Of a stretch of DNA of 64,000 bases, positions 1 through 45,176 are shown piece after piece (position 1 is the first letter of the stretch; every line of letters starts with the position of its first letter). Source of the DNA: Actinokineospora diospyrosa (GTDB lineage: Bacteria; Actinomycetota; Actinomycetes; Mycobacteriales; Pseudonocardiaceae); assembly GCF_024171925.1 (NCBI RefSeq), contig NZ_JAMTCO010000017.1, positions 124,001 through 188,000 on the forward strand, read 5' to 3'. The position numbers and the translations under genes are program-made. Below the pieces are notes generated by a model, which was not told where the DNA came from, did no database searches, and saw only the letters and a list, made by a program, of their open reading frames with translations.

Positions 1-25984
<25,984 letters not shown>

Positions 25985-37904: not shown

Positions 37905-38184
37905 CGGATCTGCTCCTCGGGGCGACGGCGCCGCGCGGATCGGCGCGGCATCCCGAGTCGTACCGTCCACAGAGGGCGGACGCCAGCAGCCTCACCCACC
38001 CTGGTGACGGCGACCCTACCGTGGGGCAGCCTGGGCATAAGCCGCCCCACGGCCGTGCCTTGCTCCCAAGACCCGCCCACGGGAACCGGCCGGGCGAGCG
38101 CGGTCAGGTGGGCGATCGCGGGTCACGCTAGAAGAAACACCACCGGCACAGGTACCCCCGAATGGCGCAAGAGAGCCAGATCCC
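37905..38184. other. Intergenic stretch without a recognised gene
   Basis: Between the SGNH-hydrolase start and the terminator of the GlxA-like gene. It should hold the SGNH promoter and 5' leader. I see no convincing ORF, RNA or operator in it. Confidence 0.5.
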
Positions 38185-38217
38185 GCCCCGGCTCCCCGGA
38201 TTCCGGGGAGCCGGGGC
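38185..38217 (-). terminator. Long perfect hairpin downstream of the GlxA-like regulator
   Basis: A 15-bp perfect stem (38185-38199 with 38203-38217, GCCCCGGCTCCCCGG and its complement) closes a three-base loop ATT. It lies 17 bases after the regulator stop. There is no U-tract, as is common for actinobacterial terminators. Confidence 0.8.
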
Positions 38218-38233
38218 ACACCCCCAGCGCGGA

Positions 38234-39211
38234 TCAGCCCTCCACAGTGGACGCGAAACGGCGGCGGTATTCCGCCGGTCCCACCGCGAGCGCGCGCAGG
38301 AACGCGCGGCGCATCGCCTCCGGCGTGCCGTACCCGCAGGCGCGCGCCACCCGCGAGACGCTGTCGTCGGTGTCCTCCAGCCGCAGCCGCGCCGCCTCGA
38401 GCCGGACCTGGTCGACGTAGCGGCCGGGCGCCACCCCCACCTCCTGGGTGAACGCGCGGGTGAAGTGCCGCGGCGAGAGCCCGGCGTGCTTGGCCAGCGC
38501 GGTCACCGACAGGTCCGCCTCGGGGTGCTCGGCGATCCAGCGCTGCACGTCGCGCAACGGTTCGCGGTGCGCCAGTTGCGCCGACATCTGCGCGCTGAAC
38601 TGGGCCTGGTTGCCCGGGCGGCGCAGGAACACCACCAGGTGCCTGGCGACGGTGAGCGCCACGTCGCGGCCGAGGTCGTCCTCCACCAGCGCCAGCGCGA
38701 GGTCGATGCCCGCGCTCACCCCGGCCGAGGTGGCGATGTTGCCGTCGCGCACGAAGATCGGCTCGGCGACCACGGTGATGTCCGGGTGCAGGTCGGCCAA
38801 CTCGGCGCAGTACGCCCAGTGCGTGGTGGCCCGGCGCCCGGCGAGGAACCCGGCCTCGGCCAGCACGAACGCCCCGGTGCACACCGACACCAGCCGCCCG
38901 GCGCGCGGACCGGCGCCGCGCAGCCACGACACCAGCGACAGGTCGAGCTCACCCGGTACGCAGCCACCTGGCGCGACCAGGGTGTCCGGCGCGGGCGCGC
39001 CGTCGAGGTCGATGTCGGGGACCAGCCGCAGCCGCGCGGAGGTCCGCACGGCGACCGCACCGAGGCTGCCGGTGGTGATCGCGTAGGCGGGCGCCCCGCC
39101 GCGCTCGGTGAGGACGTCGTTGGCCGAGGCGAACACCTCGACCGGCCCGACCACGTCGAGCCCCTTGACGCCGTCGTAGAGCATCAGCTGGACGTTGTGC
39201 ACACCACCCAT
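38234..39211 (-). CDS. GlxA-like regulator (DJ-1/PfpI domain plus AraC HTH)
   Basis: 325 residues. The N-terminal DJ-1/PfpI-like domain (about 5-190) has the nucleophile-elbow-like SVCTGAFVLAEAG. The C-terminal AraC helix-turn-helix region (about 215-320) has the recognisable LSPRHFTRAFTQEVG and VARACGYGTPEAMRRAF. Such proteins activate catabolic genes in response to a small molecule. No obvious target is adjacent. The start is not well supported by a ribosome-binding site; ATG 39211 is used. Confidence 0.9.
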   Translation of the reverse strand: MGGVHNVQLMLYDGVKGLDVVGPVEVFASANDVLTERGGAPAYAITTGSLGAVAVRTSARLRLVPDIDLDGAPAPDTLVAPGGCVPGELDLSLVSWLRGAGPRAGRLVSVCTGAFVLAEAGFLAGRRATTHWAYCAELADLHPDITVVAEPIFVRDGNIATSAGVSAGIDLALALVEDDLGRDVALTVARHLVVFLRRPGNQAQFSAQMSAQLAHREPLRDVQRWIAEHPEADLSVTALAKHAGLSPRHFTRAFTQEVGVAPGRYVDQVRLEAARLRLEDTDDSVSRVARACGYGTPEAMRRAFLRALAVGPAEYRRRFASTVEG

Positions 39212-39270
39212 GTTGTTCGGTGCGCGGCGAAGGCGTCAACGACGCGTACCCCACCTTTCGCGCCACGGGC

Positions 39271-39825
39271 TCACCACACCCACTTGCGCATCCACAGTGG
39301 ACGGTCGCGGCCCTGGCCGACCTGGCGCAGCTCGGTGGGGTCGAACAGCACCGGTTCCGGCTCGGCGTGCACCAGCAACACCTCGTGGTAGACCTCGCGG
39401 TCGGACAGGATCCACCCGGCCGGGCAGCCCGCCGCGCGCCACCTGGCCCGCCACAGCGCGGTCTCCTCCACCGCGGCCCGCTCGACCAGCTGGACCCGCT
39501 CCACGCGCAGCCCGCGCGCGGTGAGCACCATCCCGGCGACGCAGGCGAGCACCCCGCAGTCCAGGTGCGCCGCGCCGGGCACGTCGCACCAGGCGAACGG
39601 CCACCGGCTGGGACCCCAGCGGAAGTAGCGGAACAGCCAACCGAGGCCGAAGGTCGTGGTGTCCCACTCGCGGGCGGGGGTCGCCTCGGCGCGGTCGTGC
39701 GCCAGCAGCCAGGACCGGGTGTCGGCGCACGCGACGCAGTCCGGGTGCTCGACCAGCGCGGACGGCGGCTGGTCGGGCACCTTCGCGGGCAGCGCGGGGA
39801 CGGCCGACTGGGCGGGGGGTGTCAT
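39271..39825 (-). CDS. Small transglutaminase-like protein of the radical SAM operon
   Basis: 184 residues, not recognised as a named family. The part HLDCGVLACVAG, then YHEVLLVHA, then PVLFDPTE has the order Cys - His - Asp seen in transglutaminase-like and arylamine N-acetyltransferase folds (Cys on a helix, H-x-x-V, D-P-T). An N-terminal CVAC pair could bind metal. The first possible start, GTG, directly follows the stop of the ATP-grasp/decarboxylase gene; the next codon, ATG 39825, has GGAG eight bases upstream. The context suggests it transfers or hydrolyses an amide or acyl group in the operon's pathway. Function is inference. Confidence 0.75.
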   Translation of the reverse strand: MTPPAQSAVPALPAKVPDQPPSALVEHPDCVACADTRSWLLAHDRAEATPAREWDTTTFGLGWLFRYFRWGPSRWPFAWCDVPGAAHLDCGVLACVAGMVLTARGLRVERVQLVERAAVEETALWRARWRAAGCPAGWILSDREVYHEVLLVHAEPEPVLFDPTELRQVGQGRDRPLWMRKWVW

Positions 39826-39828
39826 CAC

Positions 39829-42069
39829 TCAGACTCCGAACCGGTAGCTCATGCTGGCGTCGTAGGCGCCCGCGTCGAGGAACAGCAGGTGGTCGCCCGC
39901 GGCGATGCCGTCGGGCAGGGTGAGCCCGGCGCGCGGGCGGTCGTGCTCCATGCACAGCCGACCGAGCACGGACTCGTCCCCGGCGGGCAGCTTGCGCCAC
40001 CGGGCACCCGGGGCCCGCCACAGCACGGGGTGCGGGTGCGAGGCCCAGTCGGGCAGTTCGGCGATCGAGGCGTCGACGACCGCGGCCCGCCCGAGCGGCC
40101 CGTCGCGCACGTCGAGCACGGTGGTGAACACCGCCATCGCCGGTTCCACCAGGTACTTGCCCGGCTCGAACAGCACCTGGTCGAGCGAGCCGAGCTCGCG
40201 CACCGCGACCCGGCTCGCCCTGGTCAGCTGGCTGCCGAGCTCCTCGCGGGCGAGCCAGGGCGGCCACCCGCCGCCGAGGTCGACGCAGCGGGCGCGGCTG
40301 TTGACGCGGGTCAGCAGGTCGGCGGCGACGGTGACCGCCGAGGTGAACTCGCGCAGCCAGGCGCGCAGCCCGATCTGGCTGGCGGCGTGGTGGAACTGCA
40401 GCCCGACCCGGCCGAGCGGGGCGCGGCGCAGCGCGTCGGCGACCCGGCGGTAGGTGCGCGGGCAGGTGACGTCGATGCCGAAGCGGGAGGCGACGGTGGG
40501 CGGGGCGAGCCGCAGCCCGACCACGTCGGCGTACACCGCGCCGGTGGTGAGCAGGTCGACGGTGCGCTCGAGGTCGGTGACCGAGTCGCAGAACACCGCG
40601 CCGAACTTGACCGGGCCGCCGTCGAAGCGCCACCACTTCGCCGGGCCGCCGAGCACGACCCGGTCGCCGGGGAAGCCCGCCTCGGCGCAGCGGCGGGCCT
40701 CGGCCTGCGAGATCACCTCGACCAGCGCGCCGCGGCGCAGCACCGCGTCGAGCACCCGGGGGTCGGGGTTGGTCTTGACCGAGTAGGCGAAGCGGGTGGG
40801 CACCCCGGTGGCGTCCTCGACATCGCGGCAGACCGCGGTGAGCCGGTCCAGGCCGCGGTCGAGCACCCCGCCGAACAGGACCCGCGCGGGCGACTCGTAC
40901 GGGTCGACCACGAGCGCCGCGGCGATGTCGGCGGTGCGCACCGGGTCGACCGCGCTCGGGCGCGGCCGGGGGCGCGCCGGGGTGAGCCTGCGGGAGAGCA
41001 CCGGCATGCCGGAGGGGTGCTTGCCGACCGCGGCGGGTTCCGGCGCGACCGCGCGGTGGGTCGGCGCGAGCGCGCCGGTGGCGTGCGGGCCCGCCGGGAT
41101 CTCCTCGACGACGCGCACGAACCCGCTCGAGTGGGCCTTCTCCCGCTCGTGGCGGGGGATCCCGGTCGCGGCGGCGACGAGCCGGGCGGGCAGGTTGACC
41201 CCGGCGAGGGTGGCGCCGTGGATCCAGGCCGGGAACCGCGGGTTGACCTCCAGCAGGTACGGGACGCCGGTGTCGCTCTCGCGCACGAACTCGACCTCGC
41301 CGCCGCCAGTCCACCTGGTGACCCGGACCAGGTCGACCAGCCGGGCGCGGGTTGGCTGGTCGAGCCGGTCGACCGCGCCAGCCCAGGTCTTGCCCTCGCT
41401 GGTGACCATCGTCTTGCGCATCGCGCAAGCGCCGAGCAGTTCGCCGTCGAGCGCGGCGAACACCACCGACTCCTCGGTGCCCGCGACGTGGCGCTGCAGC
41501 AGGCTCTCCGCGCCCCAGGTGTCGCGCACCCGCTCGAGCGCGCCGGTCAACTCGGCGCGGTTGGTGACCGCGACCGCCTGGTAGCGCGGTCCCTTGACCC
41601 AGATCCGCCAGCCGTGCCGGGCGGCGAAGTCGGCGGCGTCCTCGATGCCCTCGGCGAAGCGGTGCTCGGGTACCGCGAGCCCGAGCAGCGACGCGGCGGT
41701 CTCGCCCGGCTTGGCAACGACGTCGAACGCGGCGGCTGGCGGCAGCAACAGCGCCGGGTGGCCGGGGGCGCGCTCGGTGAGCAACGCGGCCTCCAGGTCG
41801 AGGCCGGGCAGGAAGACCGCGCCAGCCGACTCCACGATGGACACCAGGCCCGCGCACAGCGCGCCGAGATCGGCGGTGTGCCAACCGGGGCGGATGTGCG
41901 TGCGGTCGAACTCCGGGGCGCTGAGCCCGGTGGAACGCGGCGAGTAGTCCAGCGCCTCGAGCCGCAGCCGGGGCCAGGCCAGCCGCAGCGACCGGGCCAG
42001 GCCGAGCCCGGGTGAGGGGTTGGGGCCCGAGTGCACGCCGGACAGCACGACGGTGGGGGTGGTCGACAC
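39829..42069 (-). CDS. ATP-grasp ligase / PLP-dependent decarboxylase fusion
   Basis: 746 residues. The N-terminal half (about 1-330) is ATP-grasp: RIWVKGPRYQAVAV, GACAMRKTM, GGGEVEFVRES and the metal/ATP motif LEVNPRFPAW. The C-terminal half (about 370-746) is a fold-type III decarboxylase of the DAP/ornithine/arginine group: FAYSVKTNPD with the PLP lysine, DLGGGWP (phosphate), EPGKYLVEP, the GRLCMEHD cysteine and GAYDASMSYRFG. All catalytic markers appear intact. GTG 42069 has AGGGGA upstream and lies 11 bases after the radical SAM stop. It could ligate an amino acid and decarboxylate it (or the reverse), giving an amine or amide. No described fusion comes to mind. Confidence 0.9.
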   Translation of the reverse strand: MSTTPTVVLSGVHSGPNPSPGLGLARSLRLAWPRLRLEALDYSPRSTGLSAPEFDRTHIRPGWHTADLGALCAGLVSIVESAGAVFLPGLDLEAALLTERAPGHPALLLPPAAAFDVVAKPGETAASLLGLAVPEHRFAEGIEDAADFAARHGWRIWVKGPRYQAVAVTNRAELTGALERVRDTWGAESLLQRHVAGTEESVVFAALDGELLGACAMRKTMVTSEGKTWAGAVDRLDQPTRARLVDLVRVTRWTGGGEVEFVRESDTGVPYLLEVNPRFPAWIHGATLAGVNLPARLVAAATGIPRHEREKAHSSGFVRVVEEIPAGPHATGALAPTHRAVAPEPAAVGKHPSGMPVLSRRLTPARPRPRPSAVDPVRTADIAAALVVDPYESPARVLFGGVLDRGLDRLTAVCRDVEDATGVPTRFAYSVKTNPDPRVLDAVLRRGALVEVISQAEARRCAEAGFPGDRVVLGGPAKWWRFDGGPVKFGAVFCDSVTDLERTVDLLTTGAVYADVVGLRLAPPTVASRFGIDVTCPRTYRRVADALRRAPLGRVGLQFHHAASQIGLRAWLREFTSAVTVAADLLTRVNSRARCVDLGGGWPPWLAREELGSQLTRASRVAVRELGSLDQVLFEPGKYLVEPAMAVFTTVLDVRDGPLGRAAVVDASIAELPDWASHPHPVLWRAPGARWRKLPAGDESVLGRLCMEHDRPRAGLTLPDGIAAGDHLLFLDAGAYDASMSYRFGV

Positions 42070-42080
42070 CGGTGTCCCCT

Positions 42081-43388
42081 TCAGTGCTCGGTGGCGAAGT
42101 AGGTGGCGAGGCGCTCGTCCTCGCGGTGGCGCAGTTGCGCCCACAGCGCCTCGTAATCGGCGGTGGGGATCGCGGAGTGGTTGTCGTTGTGGTCGGAGTA
42201 GTCCTGGAACGCCGTCGCCGACAGCTCCGCCGGGCTCATCCGGGCCCGCGCGCGGGTCCAGTGCGAGCGCTCGCCGAGCGGGGTGTGCGGCAGCGGGTAG
42301 TAGCGGAACGCGTCGAAGGCCAGCCGGGGCACCGAGTCGATCAGGTCCAGCGTGGCGCGGGCGTCGGCGGCGTCCTCGCCAGGCCAGCCGATGCCGATCG
42401 AGGCGCGCAGCGCGAACCCCAGGTCGAGCGCCCGGTTGAGCACGTCGGCGATCTCGCCGCGCAGCCGCCCCTTGGCCAGCAGCAGCCGGGTCCGCGCCGA
42501 CGCGGACTCGATCCCGACATAAAGGGCGCGGAACCCGGCGCGGTGCATGAGCGCGAGCAACTCGGGATAGCGGTCGAGATCGGACAACTGGACGTCGCAG
42601 CCGAAGCGGAATCCGCCGCCGTCGGCGATCGCGCGGGCGCAGAAGTCGCGAACCCGCCGTTGCCGGGCGTCGATGAAACAGTCGTCGACGAAGTAGAATC
42701 CGCGGGCGCCGGTGACCGCGTTCAGTTCCAGCAGGTCGTCGTGCAGTTTCCCGGCGGTGACGTAGCGGAACCGCGCGTTCGGGTAGTGCGCGTTGAGGTA
42801 GCAGAAGGTGCACCGCCTGGTGCAGCCGCGCGCGGAGGCGACGTGGATGCCGGGCACGGCCATGTTCGGCCAACTGCGCGCCGGGTGCACGTAGTCGGCC
42901 AGGCCCGACCACCAGGACGGCAGGCCGACCGCGTCCAGGGTGGGCGGCTCGGCGCCGTGCACCAGGCCGCCCGGGCGCGGGCGGCGCGCCAGCCAGGACA
43001 CCATCGCCTGCTCGCCGTCGCCGAGCACCAGGGTGTGCACGCCGGTCCAGATCAGCGCCCGCGGGTCGGGGAAGGTGCTGACCAGCGGCCCGCCCGCGAC
43101 CACGGGGACGTCCGGGGCGACCCGGGCGAGGTGGTCGACCACGGCCCGGAAGCGGCGCGCCGCGACGCCCTGCTTGGCGGTCACCCCGACCACGGTGGGG
43201 CGCACCGCGGCGAACTCGGCGTCCAGGCTCGCCGCCGGGTCGGCGCCGTTGAGGTCGAGCACCCGCGCGCCGTGCCCGGCCGCGCGCACCGCGTGCCCGA
43301 TGGTGATCGCGCCCCACGGCGGGAACGCGAGCGGATTGACCTCGTCGTAGATTCCCGGGTGCACCAGCAGCACCTGTTCTCGGGTCAC
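42081..43388 (-). CDS. B12-binding-type radical SAM protein
   Basis: 435 residues. The N-terminal part (about 1-150: EQVLLVHPGIYDEVNPLAFPPWG, ARVLDLNGADP, VVGVTAKQG, VVAGGPLVSTFPD) matches the Rossmann-like cobalamin-binding region of class B radical SAM enzymes, although the classic DxHxxG is not evident. The radical SAM core has the cluster motif C-TRR-C-TF-C near residue 190, followed by YVGIES and SIGIGWPGE. GTG 43388 is preceded by AAGGAG at five to six bases. First gene of a three-gene operon with the ATP-grasp/decarboxylase and the transglutaminase-like protein. The reaction is unknown; methylation or C-C bond chemistry are family possibilities. Confidence 0.88.
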   Translation of the reverse strand: MTREQVLLVHPGIYDEVNPLAFPPWGAITIGHAVRAAGHGARVLDLNGADPAASLDAEFAAVRPTVVGVTAKQGVAARRFRAVVDHLARVAPDVPVVAGGPLVSTFPDPRALIWTGVHTLVLGDGEQAMVSWLARRPRPGGLVHGAEPPTLDAVGLPSWWSGLADYVHPARSWPNMAVPGIHVASARGCTRRCTFCYLNAHYPNARFRYVTAGKLHDDLLELNAVTGARGFYFVDDCFIDARQRRVRDFCARAIADGGGFRFGCDVQLSDLDRYPELLALMHRAGFRALYVGIESASARTRLLLAKGRLRGEIADVLNRALDLGFALRASIGIGWPGEDAADARATLDLIDSVPRLAFDAFRYYPLPHTPLGERSHWTRARARMSPAELSATAFQDYSDHNDNHSAIPTADYEALWAQLRHREDERLATYFATEH

Positions 43389-43688
43389 CGCGTCTCCTTT
43401 CGTTCGAGAAGGCATCGTGGTCCCGGCGGACCCCGTTACCCATTCCCGTCGACCGCGACACGATCCAGCGACAAAACCCCGTTCCGTTTCCTGATTCCGC
43501 CACGACAATGGTTGTCGCGGAATTCCAGGAACTAGCCGCGGTTCGGCACGTTCGGTAGTCGGAAATGACGTCCCGCTGGACCAAAAGGGTATTCCCGGCC
43601 GCGGCGGCCACCCGGGCGGCGCAGCGCGGCCGAGCGTGATGTCGTTTTCCCGCTGGAGTCGCCGGTCGCGACCGGCGATGCTGGGCAC
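43389..43688. promoter_or_regulatory. Divergent regulatory region with bulged hairpin
   Basis: A 300-base gap between the radical SAM operon and the divergent Ada-AlkA gene, less GC-rich than its surroundings. It holds one long interrupted palindrome (see 43494-43523). I see no convincing small ORF or precursor peptide on either strand; open frames here lack a ribosome-binding site and actinobacterial codon bias. Confidence 0.5.
43494..43523 (-). promoter_or_regulatory. Palindrome/hairpin upstream of radical SAM operon
   Basis: ATTCCG(43494)-cca-CGACAA-TGG-TTGTCG-CGGAAT(43523): a 12-bp stem with a three-base bulge and a TGG loop. The inner part, CGACAA-TGG-TTGTCG, is a perfect inverted repeat. 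It lies about 105 bases before the GTG start. It could be an operator or a structured leader. Confidence 0.65.
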
Positions 43689-45176
43689 ATGCACTCCGAC
43701 ACCGAGCGGTGCGTGCGCGCCGTGCAGTCGCGTGACGCGCGGTTCGACGGCTGGTTCTTCACCGCCGTGCTGAGCACCGGCATCTACTGCAGGCCCAGTT
43801 GCCCGGTGGTCCCGCCCAAGGCGCGCAACATGCGGTTCTACCCGAGCGCGGCCGCGGCCCAGCACGCAGGCTTCCGGGCGTGCAAGCGGTGTCGGCCCGA
43901 CGCCTCGCCCGGCTCGCCGCAGTGGAACGAGCGGGCCGACCTGGTGGGCAGGGCGATGCGGCTGATCGCCGACGGCGTCGTGGACACCGGCGGGGTGCCC
44001 GCGCTGGCGGCGCGGCTGGGCTACAGCGTGCGGCAGGTGGAGCGGCAACTGCGCGCGGAACTGGGCGCCGGGCCGCTGGCGCTGGCCAGGGCGCAGCGCG
44101 CGCAGACGGCCAGGGTGCTGATCGAGACCAGCGCGCTGCCGATGACCGAGGTCGCCATGGCCGCGGGGTTCGGCAGCATCCGGACGTTCAACGACACCGT
44201 GCGCGAGGTGTTCGCGCTCTCGCCGACCGACCTGCGCAGGCGGGCGACCGGGCAGGCAGGACAGGCGGGGCAGGCGGGACAGGCGGGGCCGGTGTCGGGC
44301 GGGTTGACCGTGCGGCTGCCGTTCCGGGCGCCGTTCGCCCCGGACAACGTCTTCGGCCACCTCGCCGCGACCGCCGTGCCCGGGGTCGAGGAGTGGCGCG
44401 CGGGCGCCTACCGGCGCAGCGTCCGGCTGCCCAACGGGCCGGGCGTGGTGAGCCTGCGGCCCGGCCAGGACCACGTGCGGTGCGACCTGTCGCTGACCGA
44501 CCTGCGGGACGTGTCGGTGGCGATCAGCCGGTGCAGGCGCCTGCTCGACCTCGACGCCGACCCGGTGGCCGTCGACGACCTGCTCGCCGCCGACCCGGTC
44601 CTGGCGCCGCTGGTGCGCCGGACACCGGGCAGGCGGGTGCCGCGCACCGTCGACGGCGACGAGATGGCCGTGCGCGCCGTGCTGGGCCAGCAGGTGTCCA
44701 CGCAGGCGGCCCGCACCCACGCCGCGCGGCTGGTGCTGGCGCACGGCGAGCCGATCACCGACGACGGCGGCGGCCTGACGCACCTGTTCCCGGACGTGGC
44801 CGCGCTCGCCGGGATCGACCCGGAGACCCTCGCCTTCCCGCGGTCGCGCCGGGCGACGCTGCTGGGGCTGGTCGCCGCGCTGCCGCGCATCGACCTGTCC
44901 CCCGGCGGCGACTGGCGGGCCGCGCGCGAGGACCTGGCCGCGCTGCCCGGGATCGGGCCGTGGACGGTCGAGACGATCGCCATGCGCGCCCTGGGCGACC
45001 CGGACGCGTTCGTCGGCAGCGACCTGGGGATCCGGGTCGCCGCCCAGTCGCTGGGGTTACCCACCGCTCCGGCCGCGCTGAGCACCCGCGCGGCGGCGTG
45101 GCGGCCGTGGCGCTCCTACGCGGTGCAGTACCTGTGGGCCACCGGCGACCACCCGATCAACTTCCTGCCCGCCTGA
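43689..45176 (+). CDS. alkA: Ada-AlkA fusion: adaptive response regulator / 3-methyladenine glycosylase
   Basis: 495 residues in three parts. The N-terminal Ada zinc domain has cysteines 34, 38, 65 and 68 (YCRPSC, CKRC) and takes methyl from phosphotriesters. An AraC helix-turn-helix region lies at about 80-185. The C-terminal AlkA-type glycosylase (about 205-495) has the helix-hairpin-helix LPGIGPWTVET and catalytic Asp in VGSDLGIR. The Gly-Gln-Ala repeat (188-200) is a flexible linker. It senses methylation damage and excises alkylated bases. The next gene is the O6-alkylguanine transferase, 30 bases on, so both act in one alkylation-repair operon. Confidence 0.95.
   Translation: MHSDTERCVRAVQSRDARFDGWFFTAVLSTGIYCRPSCPVVPPKARNMRFYPSAAAAQHAGFRACKRCRPDASPGSPQWNERADLVGRAMRLIADGVVDTGGVPALAARLGYSVRQVERQLRAELGAGPLALARAQRAQTARVLIETSALPMTEVAMAAGFGSIRTFNDTVREVFALSPTDLRRRATGQAGQAGQAGQAGPVSGGLTVRLPFRAPFAPDNVFGHLAATAVPGVEEWRAGAYRRSVRLPNGPGVVSLRPGQDHVRCDLSLTDLRDVSVAISRCRRLLDLDADPVAVDDLLAADPVLAPLVRRTPGRRVPRTVDGDEMAVRAVLGQQVSTQAARTHAARLVLAHGEPITDDGGGLTHLFPDVAALAGIDPETLAFPRSRRATLLGLVAALPRIDLSPGGDWRAAREDLAALPGIGPWTVETIAMRALGDPDAFVGSDLGIRVAAQSLGLPTAPAALSTRAAAWRPWRSYAVQYLWATGDHPINFLPA
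44250..44288 (+). repeat. 9-bp tandem repeat in AlkA linker
   Basis: Four copies of G-G-G/A-C-A-G-G-C-G/A type units encode G-Q-A repeats between the AraC and glycosylase domains. In-frame slippage here would change linker length only. Confidence 0.85.

Follow-up and report, generated by a model that had tools for sequence, protein, structure and literature searches.

The window analyzed here, a 64,000-nucleotide stretch of the Actinokineospora diospyrosa genome (contig NZ_JAMTCO010000017.1, positions 124,001 to 188,000), carries an operon of three genes. These encode a cobalamin-binding radical S-adenosylmethionine (SAM) protein, a fusion of an ATP-grasp domain with a pyridoxal phosphate (PLP)-dependent decarboxylase domain, and a small protein predicted to have a transglutaminase-like fold, hereafter called RS, FU, and SM, respectively. 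The operon was confirmed as real with all three genes intact. The widest conserved unit is FU plus SM, not the three-gene set, and the finding is thus more general than a preliminary description made from this sequence: the conserved object is an FU-SM pair with a changing partner. We tentatively propose, at somewhat less than even odds, that FU-SM is the core of an unrecognized, phylum-spanning class of carrier-free pathways. In these, one chain would both ligate and decarboxylate, a new transglutaminase-fold family would release or transfer what is formed, and the chemistry of a small amide, or its traffic, would depend on a third gene that varies: a cobalamin radical SAM protein, an Fe/2-oxoglutarate-like oxygenase, a membrane desaturase, or a probably ancestral urea-transporter-type channel.

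Organization and integrity of the operon

42081..43388, minus strand: RS, cobalamin-binding radical SAM protein, 435 aa (Pfam, CxxxCxxC)
39829..42069, minus strand: FU, ATP-grasp/PLP-decarboxylase fusion, 746 aa (Pfam)
41080..42069, minus strand: FU residues 1-330, ATP-grasp ligase domain
39829..40887, minus strand: FU residues ~395-746, alanine-racemase-fold PLP decarboxylase with K432 and C706-M707-E708 (Pfam, PDB matches)
39271..39825, minus strand: SM, transglutaminase-fold protein, 184 aa, Cys90-His147-Asp162 (predicted structure)
43389..43688, no strand: intergenic stretch upstream of RS (GGGTAAC block in seven aligned genus loci)

RS and FU start with GTG, with AAAGGAGA upstream of the RS start, and SM starts with ATG (an alternative GTG is possible at 39828). 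The operon proteins share 84-96% identity with their counterparts in the three nearest genomes. Against these relatives the ratio of nonsynonymous to synonymous substitution (dN/dS) was 0.08-0.22 in SM and 0.18-0.30 in RS and FU, and it rose to 0.34-0.49 against four genus members that are farther away. These values, together with the recurrence of FU and SM across phyla given below, argue that the operon is not a chance arrangement.

The domain calls made for RS and FU in the preliminary description held up, as the Pfam domains score above their curated cut-offs, and so did its statement that the catalytic motifs are intact, the residues being found in RS, FU, and SM. Structure prediction likewise gave SM the transglutaminase-like fold it had been assigned, with the triad in the order Cys-His-Asp. 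The genes had been described as overlapping or closely spaced; they are tightly packed, with gaps of 11 bases (RS-FU) and 3 bases (FU-SM), but do not overlap.

FU and SM are the conserved pair

A genome scan gave at least 560 FU relatives, of which the best 80 were retrieved; sampling was therefore by similarity. These comprised 35 fused-type loci (L004-L038, a few of them truncated at contig ends or interrupted by a frame change) and 45 split-type loci having two genes (L039-L083). With further genomes, 87 stretches qualified by score as fused-type and reduced to 53 non-redundant loci; note that the split locus L039 also passes the score and that the 53 include fragments of a single FU spread over separate contigs (L124/L125). 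The seven top FU matches were all from Actinokineospora, with the A. baliensis protein 92% identical.

Of the 47 non-redundant fused-type loci with at least 700 bases after FU, 44 have SM as the very next gene, at spacings from a 55-base overlap to 63 bases apart. The six loci with less than 700 bases behind FU are outside this count, and two of them hold all or part of SM. The three loci lacking SM at this position are L039 and two Actinokineospora genomes in which no SM match was found anywhere. A whole-genome search of 14 genomes found exactly one SM in each of the 11 fused-type genomes and none in the three split-type genomes. By record titles, FU plus SM occurs in at least six phyla. Neighborhood comparison therefore did not sustain the three genes as a conserved set, since RS accompanies FU in only 9 of 37 loci; the preliminary description had said that its claim of novelty would fail if the genes were not conserved together, which applies to RS, but the FU-SM pair stays linked.

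Searches of 396 genomes across the phylum and of 197 Nocardioidaceae genomes, which scored only the two to five best first-look candidates per genome so that absences are soft, returned only the own genome and the one already known, respectively. Phage records gave no matches.

The third partner changes

Third partners were tallied in the 37 non-redundant loci that extend 2 kb or more beyond FU in both directions (16 of the 53, including the window's own short stretch L001, are left out). RS was found in nine, a urea-transporter-family gene in nine, an oxygenase-like gene in 13, and none of these in six, the last group including L039 and the A. inagensis locus (L102), from which RS was lost. 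No locus of the 37 held two partners, a result that we attribute to few evolutionary events. On the FU tree, a quick tree with flagged long branches, the three partner labels need three changes (seven with "none" as a fourth state); the oxygenase-like label forms one clade, and counted singly RS needs three changes and the transporter four.

Actinokineospora supplies six of the nine RS loci. RS precedes FU in this genus and in one actinobacterial metagenome-assembled genome (MAG), and follows SM in Nocardioides, Mycobacterium, and a Spirochaetia MAG; the differing position argues for a functional tie. Within the window's family, seven of 297 genomes have RS (E ≤ 1e-50), and all seven carry FU, in a scan that scored only the five best first-look candidates per genome. 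FU (E ≤ 1e-60) was found in nine of the 297, one being a partial match.

The urea-transporter-type partner is probably ancestral, as it is the cheapest ancestral state on the FU tree, in line with its presence in 43 of the 45 split-form stretches. Only L039 and L058 lack it, and the contig of L058 breaks off 883 bases past the ligase gene. These calls were made with a home-made profile, and Pfam confirmed the domain in three proteins (L011, L019, and L040). In L040 (10433-12637) the domain is fused to an M23 peptidase, a fusion that Pfam confirmed in that locus only; genes clustering with it follow the split ATP-grasp and decarboxylase genes in L041-L083, many of them from Bacteroidota, and in 29 to 34 loci TPR-type clusters come next.

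The oxygenase-like family has no Pfam or PHROG match. Its invariant residues H145-x-D147, H195, and R208 form what we take to be the signature of Fe/2-oxoglutarate oxygenases, which suggests that class; the assignment follows the residue pattern, since a PDB profile search gave only four matches with E of 0.099 or worse. The gene is on the opposite strand in L037 and L038. In several loci, such as L033 (6545-7279 and 7246-7989), two tandem copies precede FU. On a Streptomyces zaomyceticus plasmid (L155:8992-13425) FU-SM is followed by a gene annotated as a fatty acid desaturase.

Gene loss within Actinokineospora

Full-length FU is present in eight of 16 genus genomes, where RS adjoins it in seven, SM in six, and the complete trio is found in five. 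The locus position is shared: an Ada/AlkA-type gene and a dehydrogenase gene are present in all seven stretches, GDSL in six, and AraC in four. The A. inagensis genome has no trace of RS, and its FU (protein P0009, L102 8091-10223) has lost K120, K227, K432, H560, C706, M707, and D710, although its SM keeps the triad. In the other seven members, including the two without SM, FU retains each of the 17 residues checked. RS and FU therefore seem to be kept or lost jointly in the genus. The intact FU of the two SM-less genomes suggests that SM is replaceable there and fits a late or replaceable step.

Enzyme assignments

FU matched ATPgrasp_Ter (34.6 bits, cut-off 29.1) and Orn_Arg_deC_N (PF02784; 44 bits, cut-off 23.4; residues 410-641) in Pfam, and its C-terminal sheet domain fell below its cut-off (16.6 versus 23). 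Residues K159, K227, E260, N276, K432, G599-G601, and C706 are present, of which K432, G599-G601, and C706 are invariant in the 33 fused rows. Those of the ATP-grasp domain, like the radical SAM cysteines of RS, are presumably catalytic. The ATP-grasp domain agrees with ATP-grasp ligases in both fold and family, and amino-acid ligases are among its near fold matches. The C-terminal part has the PLP lysine, GGG loop, catalytic cysteine, and PF02784 match of the alanine-racemase-fold PLP decarboxylases, and its PDB sequence matches are diaminopimelate and N-citrylornithine decarboxylases.

The catalytic cysteine stands in a Cys-Met-Glu motif in all 33 fused rows, and Met adjoins it in 44 of 44 split-form decarboxylases. 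FigC, the N-citrylornithine decarboxylase, has the same Met by alignment. In ornithine, arginine, and diaminopimelate decarboxylases the side-chain amine is bound by an acidic residue at this position, and the FigC substrate is an amide-linked ornithine (PMC7857480). That paper places FigC, SbnH, AcsE, MccE, and BtrK in one clade of decarboxylases that act on conjugated substrates, of which FU would be a candidate member. Because this Met is common to FU and FigC whereas the residue is acidic in decarboxylases of free amines, the motif suggests that FU decarboxylates an amino acid already in amide linkage. FU may work like FigC without being FigC: the FslC/FigC family model NF041039 gave 38.6 bits against a cut-off of 500. 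FU was also rejected as LysA or a polyamine enzyme, since curated cut-offs were not reached (68.8 bits against 297.9 for TIGR01048) and Met707 replaces the acidic residue; the "diaminopimelate decarboxylase" labels on homologues are doubtful for the same reasons.

SM is transglutaminase-like by its predicted fold and the order of Cys90, His147, and Asp162, all invariant, and has no curated family match. No Pfam family matched SM; Transglut_core (PF01841) matched only one of 29 SM-family members, at E 0.093. A profile of the SM family found no matches in the PDB, and the family is unnamed in Pfam, NCBIfam, and PHROGs (no PHROGs matches). Transferases and an amide synthase were among its similarly scoring fold matches.

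RS has the B12-binding (46 bits, cut-off 32.1) and Radical_SAM (52.4 bits, cut-off 29.5) domains and the C189-x3-C193-x2-C196 motif (CxxxCxxC) of cobalamin-binding radical SAM proteins. Its best named NCBIfam family is PhpK, at 79.9 bits against a cut-off of 600; none of RS, FU, and SM reaches an NCBIfam family cut-off.

A putative carrier-free amide pathway and its rivals

In the pathway that we favor, the ATP-grasp domain would activate a carboxylate as an acyl phosphate and couple it to the amino group of an amino acid, and the fused PLP decarboxylase would strip the alpha-carboxylate from the conjugate to leave an acylated amine. SM would then accept the acyl group in thioester linkage and pass it to another amine or to water, and RS would methylate an unactivated carbon of a building block or of the product, with no carrier protein used in any step. 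What the sequences show directly is the gene layout, the domains and their motifs, the FU-SM linkage, and the turnover of third partners; every reaction, their order, and the substrates are inferred, and we give this sequence of ligation, decarboxylation, and transfer a probability of about 0.5. An amide product made without a nonribosomal peptide synthetase (NRPS) is the best reading. Coupling of ligation to decarboxylation is supported by the presence of both domains on one chain, and the role of SM by its fold and triad, its linkage to FU, and its single copy in each fused-type genome.

No carrier protein was found in the cluster, contrary to what carrier-dependent assembly would call for. 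PF00550 (PP-binding) has 127 matches in the own genome, of which the nearest on the contig is ~16 kb from the operon, in an NRPS, with none closer. A home-made PP model, built from eight NRPS-type domains and liable to miss stand-alone carriers, matched in one of 131 FU stretches, redundant ones included (L098, ~6 kb from FU).

Several observations weigh against this pathway. Carboxylases equal ligases in the ATP-grasp fold score; among curated families the decarboxylase domain scores highest with LysA, ahead of FslC; the motif argument draws on a single relative of solved structure, in which the ligand was docked; and the position of FigC H357 is variable in the 33 fused rows (H, D, N, S, T, or E). 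SM is absent from 45 of 45 split-form stretches and two of eight genus loci, and hence is not needed in every version. The cases of gene loss in the genus are single events, and RS is a putative methylase by its superfamily only.

The same enzymes might instead protect an amino acid with a temporary acyl handle (for example, gamma-glutamyl), decarboxylate it, and release a free small amine or amide, SM acting as an amidohydrolase that removes the handle. We consider this unlikely, given that transferases and an amide synthase score similarly for SM and that no gamma-glutamyl enzyme is among the 20 neighbor proteins scanned with Pfam. The order could also be reversed, with a free amino acid first decarboxylated to an amine by the C-terminal domain and the amine then coupled to a carboxylate by the ATP-grasp domain, as in methanofuran synthesis, where tyrosine decarboxylase acts before MfnD. 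One chain would serve either order and the overall similarity is to diaminopimelate decarboxylase; Met707, where other family members bind side-chain amines by an acidic residue, makes this a decidedly doubtful alternative.

A carrier-free, siderophore-like metallophore pathway would accord with the decarboxylase motif common to FigC and FU (FigC, SbnH, and AcsE all serve citrate siderophores) and with a siderophore-type NRPS cluster nearby, its NRPS genes ~13 kb and its permease genes ~6 kb from the operon. However, six genes of other types lie between (HAD, MarR, luciferase-like, and alcohol-dehydrogenase by eye; GDSL and AraC by Pfam), no siderophore receptor or NIS synthetase is among the 20 scanned neighbors of FU loci, and the third partners are unlike iron genes; we hold this pathway to be very improbable. 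We give equally little credence to a system that modifies proteins or peptides, as transglutaminase-fold and B12 radical SAM proteins presumably often do. By eye no conserved short ORF was seen upstream of RS in seven genus loci, on which ground a precursor peptide there was weakly rejected; in the wider locus set ORFs below 90 aa were left out of clustering.

Relation to known systems

The carrier-free pathway that we favor has counterparts for its parts. In the closthioamide cluster, the ATP-grasp protein CtaD, decarboxylase CtaF, and transglutaminase CtaJ assemble amides from building blocks held on the carriers CtaE and CtaH (PMC6772006). Going by that description, these are the three enzyme kinds of the operon, although the operon has no carrier match and its ligase and decarboxylase are fused. 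Butirosin synthesis likewise has an ATP-grasp ligase (BtrJ), an alanine-racemase-fold decarboxylase (BtrK), and a cysteine acyltransferase (BtrH), the same kinds as in the operon, acting on the carrier BtrI. BtrK matches FU weakly (26.9 bits), and SM has no Pfam family. BtrK decarboxylates a conjugated amino acid (PMC8503589). In rhizoferrin synthesis FigA ligates before FigC decarboxylates the amide-linked amino acid (PMC7857480), an order that the operon would share along with the Cys-Met motif; there FigA is an NIS synthetase, the genes are separate, and the text available mentions no transglutaminase-fold partner. The pyrrolysine ligase PylC (structures 4ffr and 4ffl) has the ATP-grasp fold in common with FU. 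PylC also has a radical SAM partner in its pathway.

Membership in a closthioamide- or butirosin-type pathway was rejected for want of a carrier match and of a Pfam match for SM. By analogy, the operon would blend the closthioamide, butirosin, and rhizoferrin logics, and by the tests run it belongs to none of them. The preliminary description knew of no characterized pathway with this set, and our literature searches, mostly outside subscription papers, likewise found no description of the enzyme combination.

If the favored pathway is right, carrier-free amide assembly by a fused ligase-decarboxylase and an unnamed transglutaminase-fold family extends over at least six phyla. The changing third partner would offer a comparative design, the same core with different tailoring. 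The link of ATP-grasp/decarboxylase genes to urea-transporter-family proteins (43 of 45 split and 9 of 37 fused loci) raises the question of the channel's cargo.

Neighboring genes and minor observations

Window positions 3-33462 hold NRPS genes, a siderophore-interacting protein gene, two ABC transporters, and a FecCD permease gene, an ordinary siderophore-type cluster; condensation, AMP-binding, and PP-binding domains were confirmed within the first 1000 residues encoded by the ORF at 7043-25984. The operon was rejected as part of this cluster on the strength of the six intervening genes and the flanking genes kept in seven genus loci, a comparison that left the NRPS genes themselves uncompared.

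The Ada/AlkA-type gene, divergent from RS, begins at 43689. The region upstream of RS has no sigma-70 consensus site, and Rfam gave no matches across window positions 38000-45000. The GGGTAAC block, shortly before RS in the seven aligned loci, is a possible regulatory site.

A small opposite-strand protein with a QEHxMGC-type motif is encoded upstream of FU in L020 (7432-7878), L022, L025, L027, and L030; the L020 protein has no Pfam match over cut-off, and we take the type to resemble C39-type cysteine peptidases. In an Ectothiorhodospiraceae MAG, a defense-like protein with SIR2-like and nSTAND NTPase parts is encoded just upstream of FU (L023:4786-7221).
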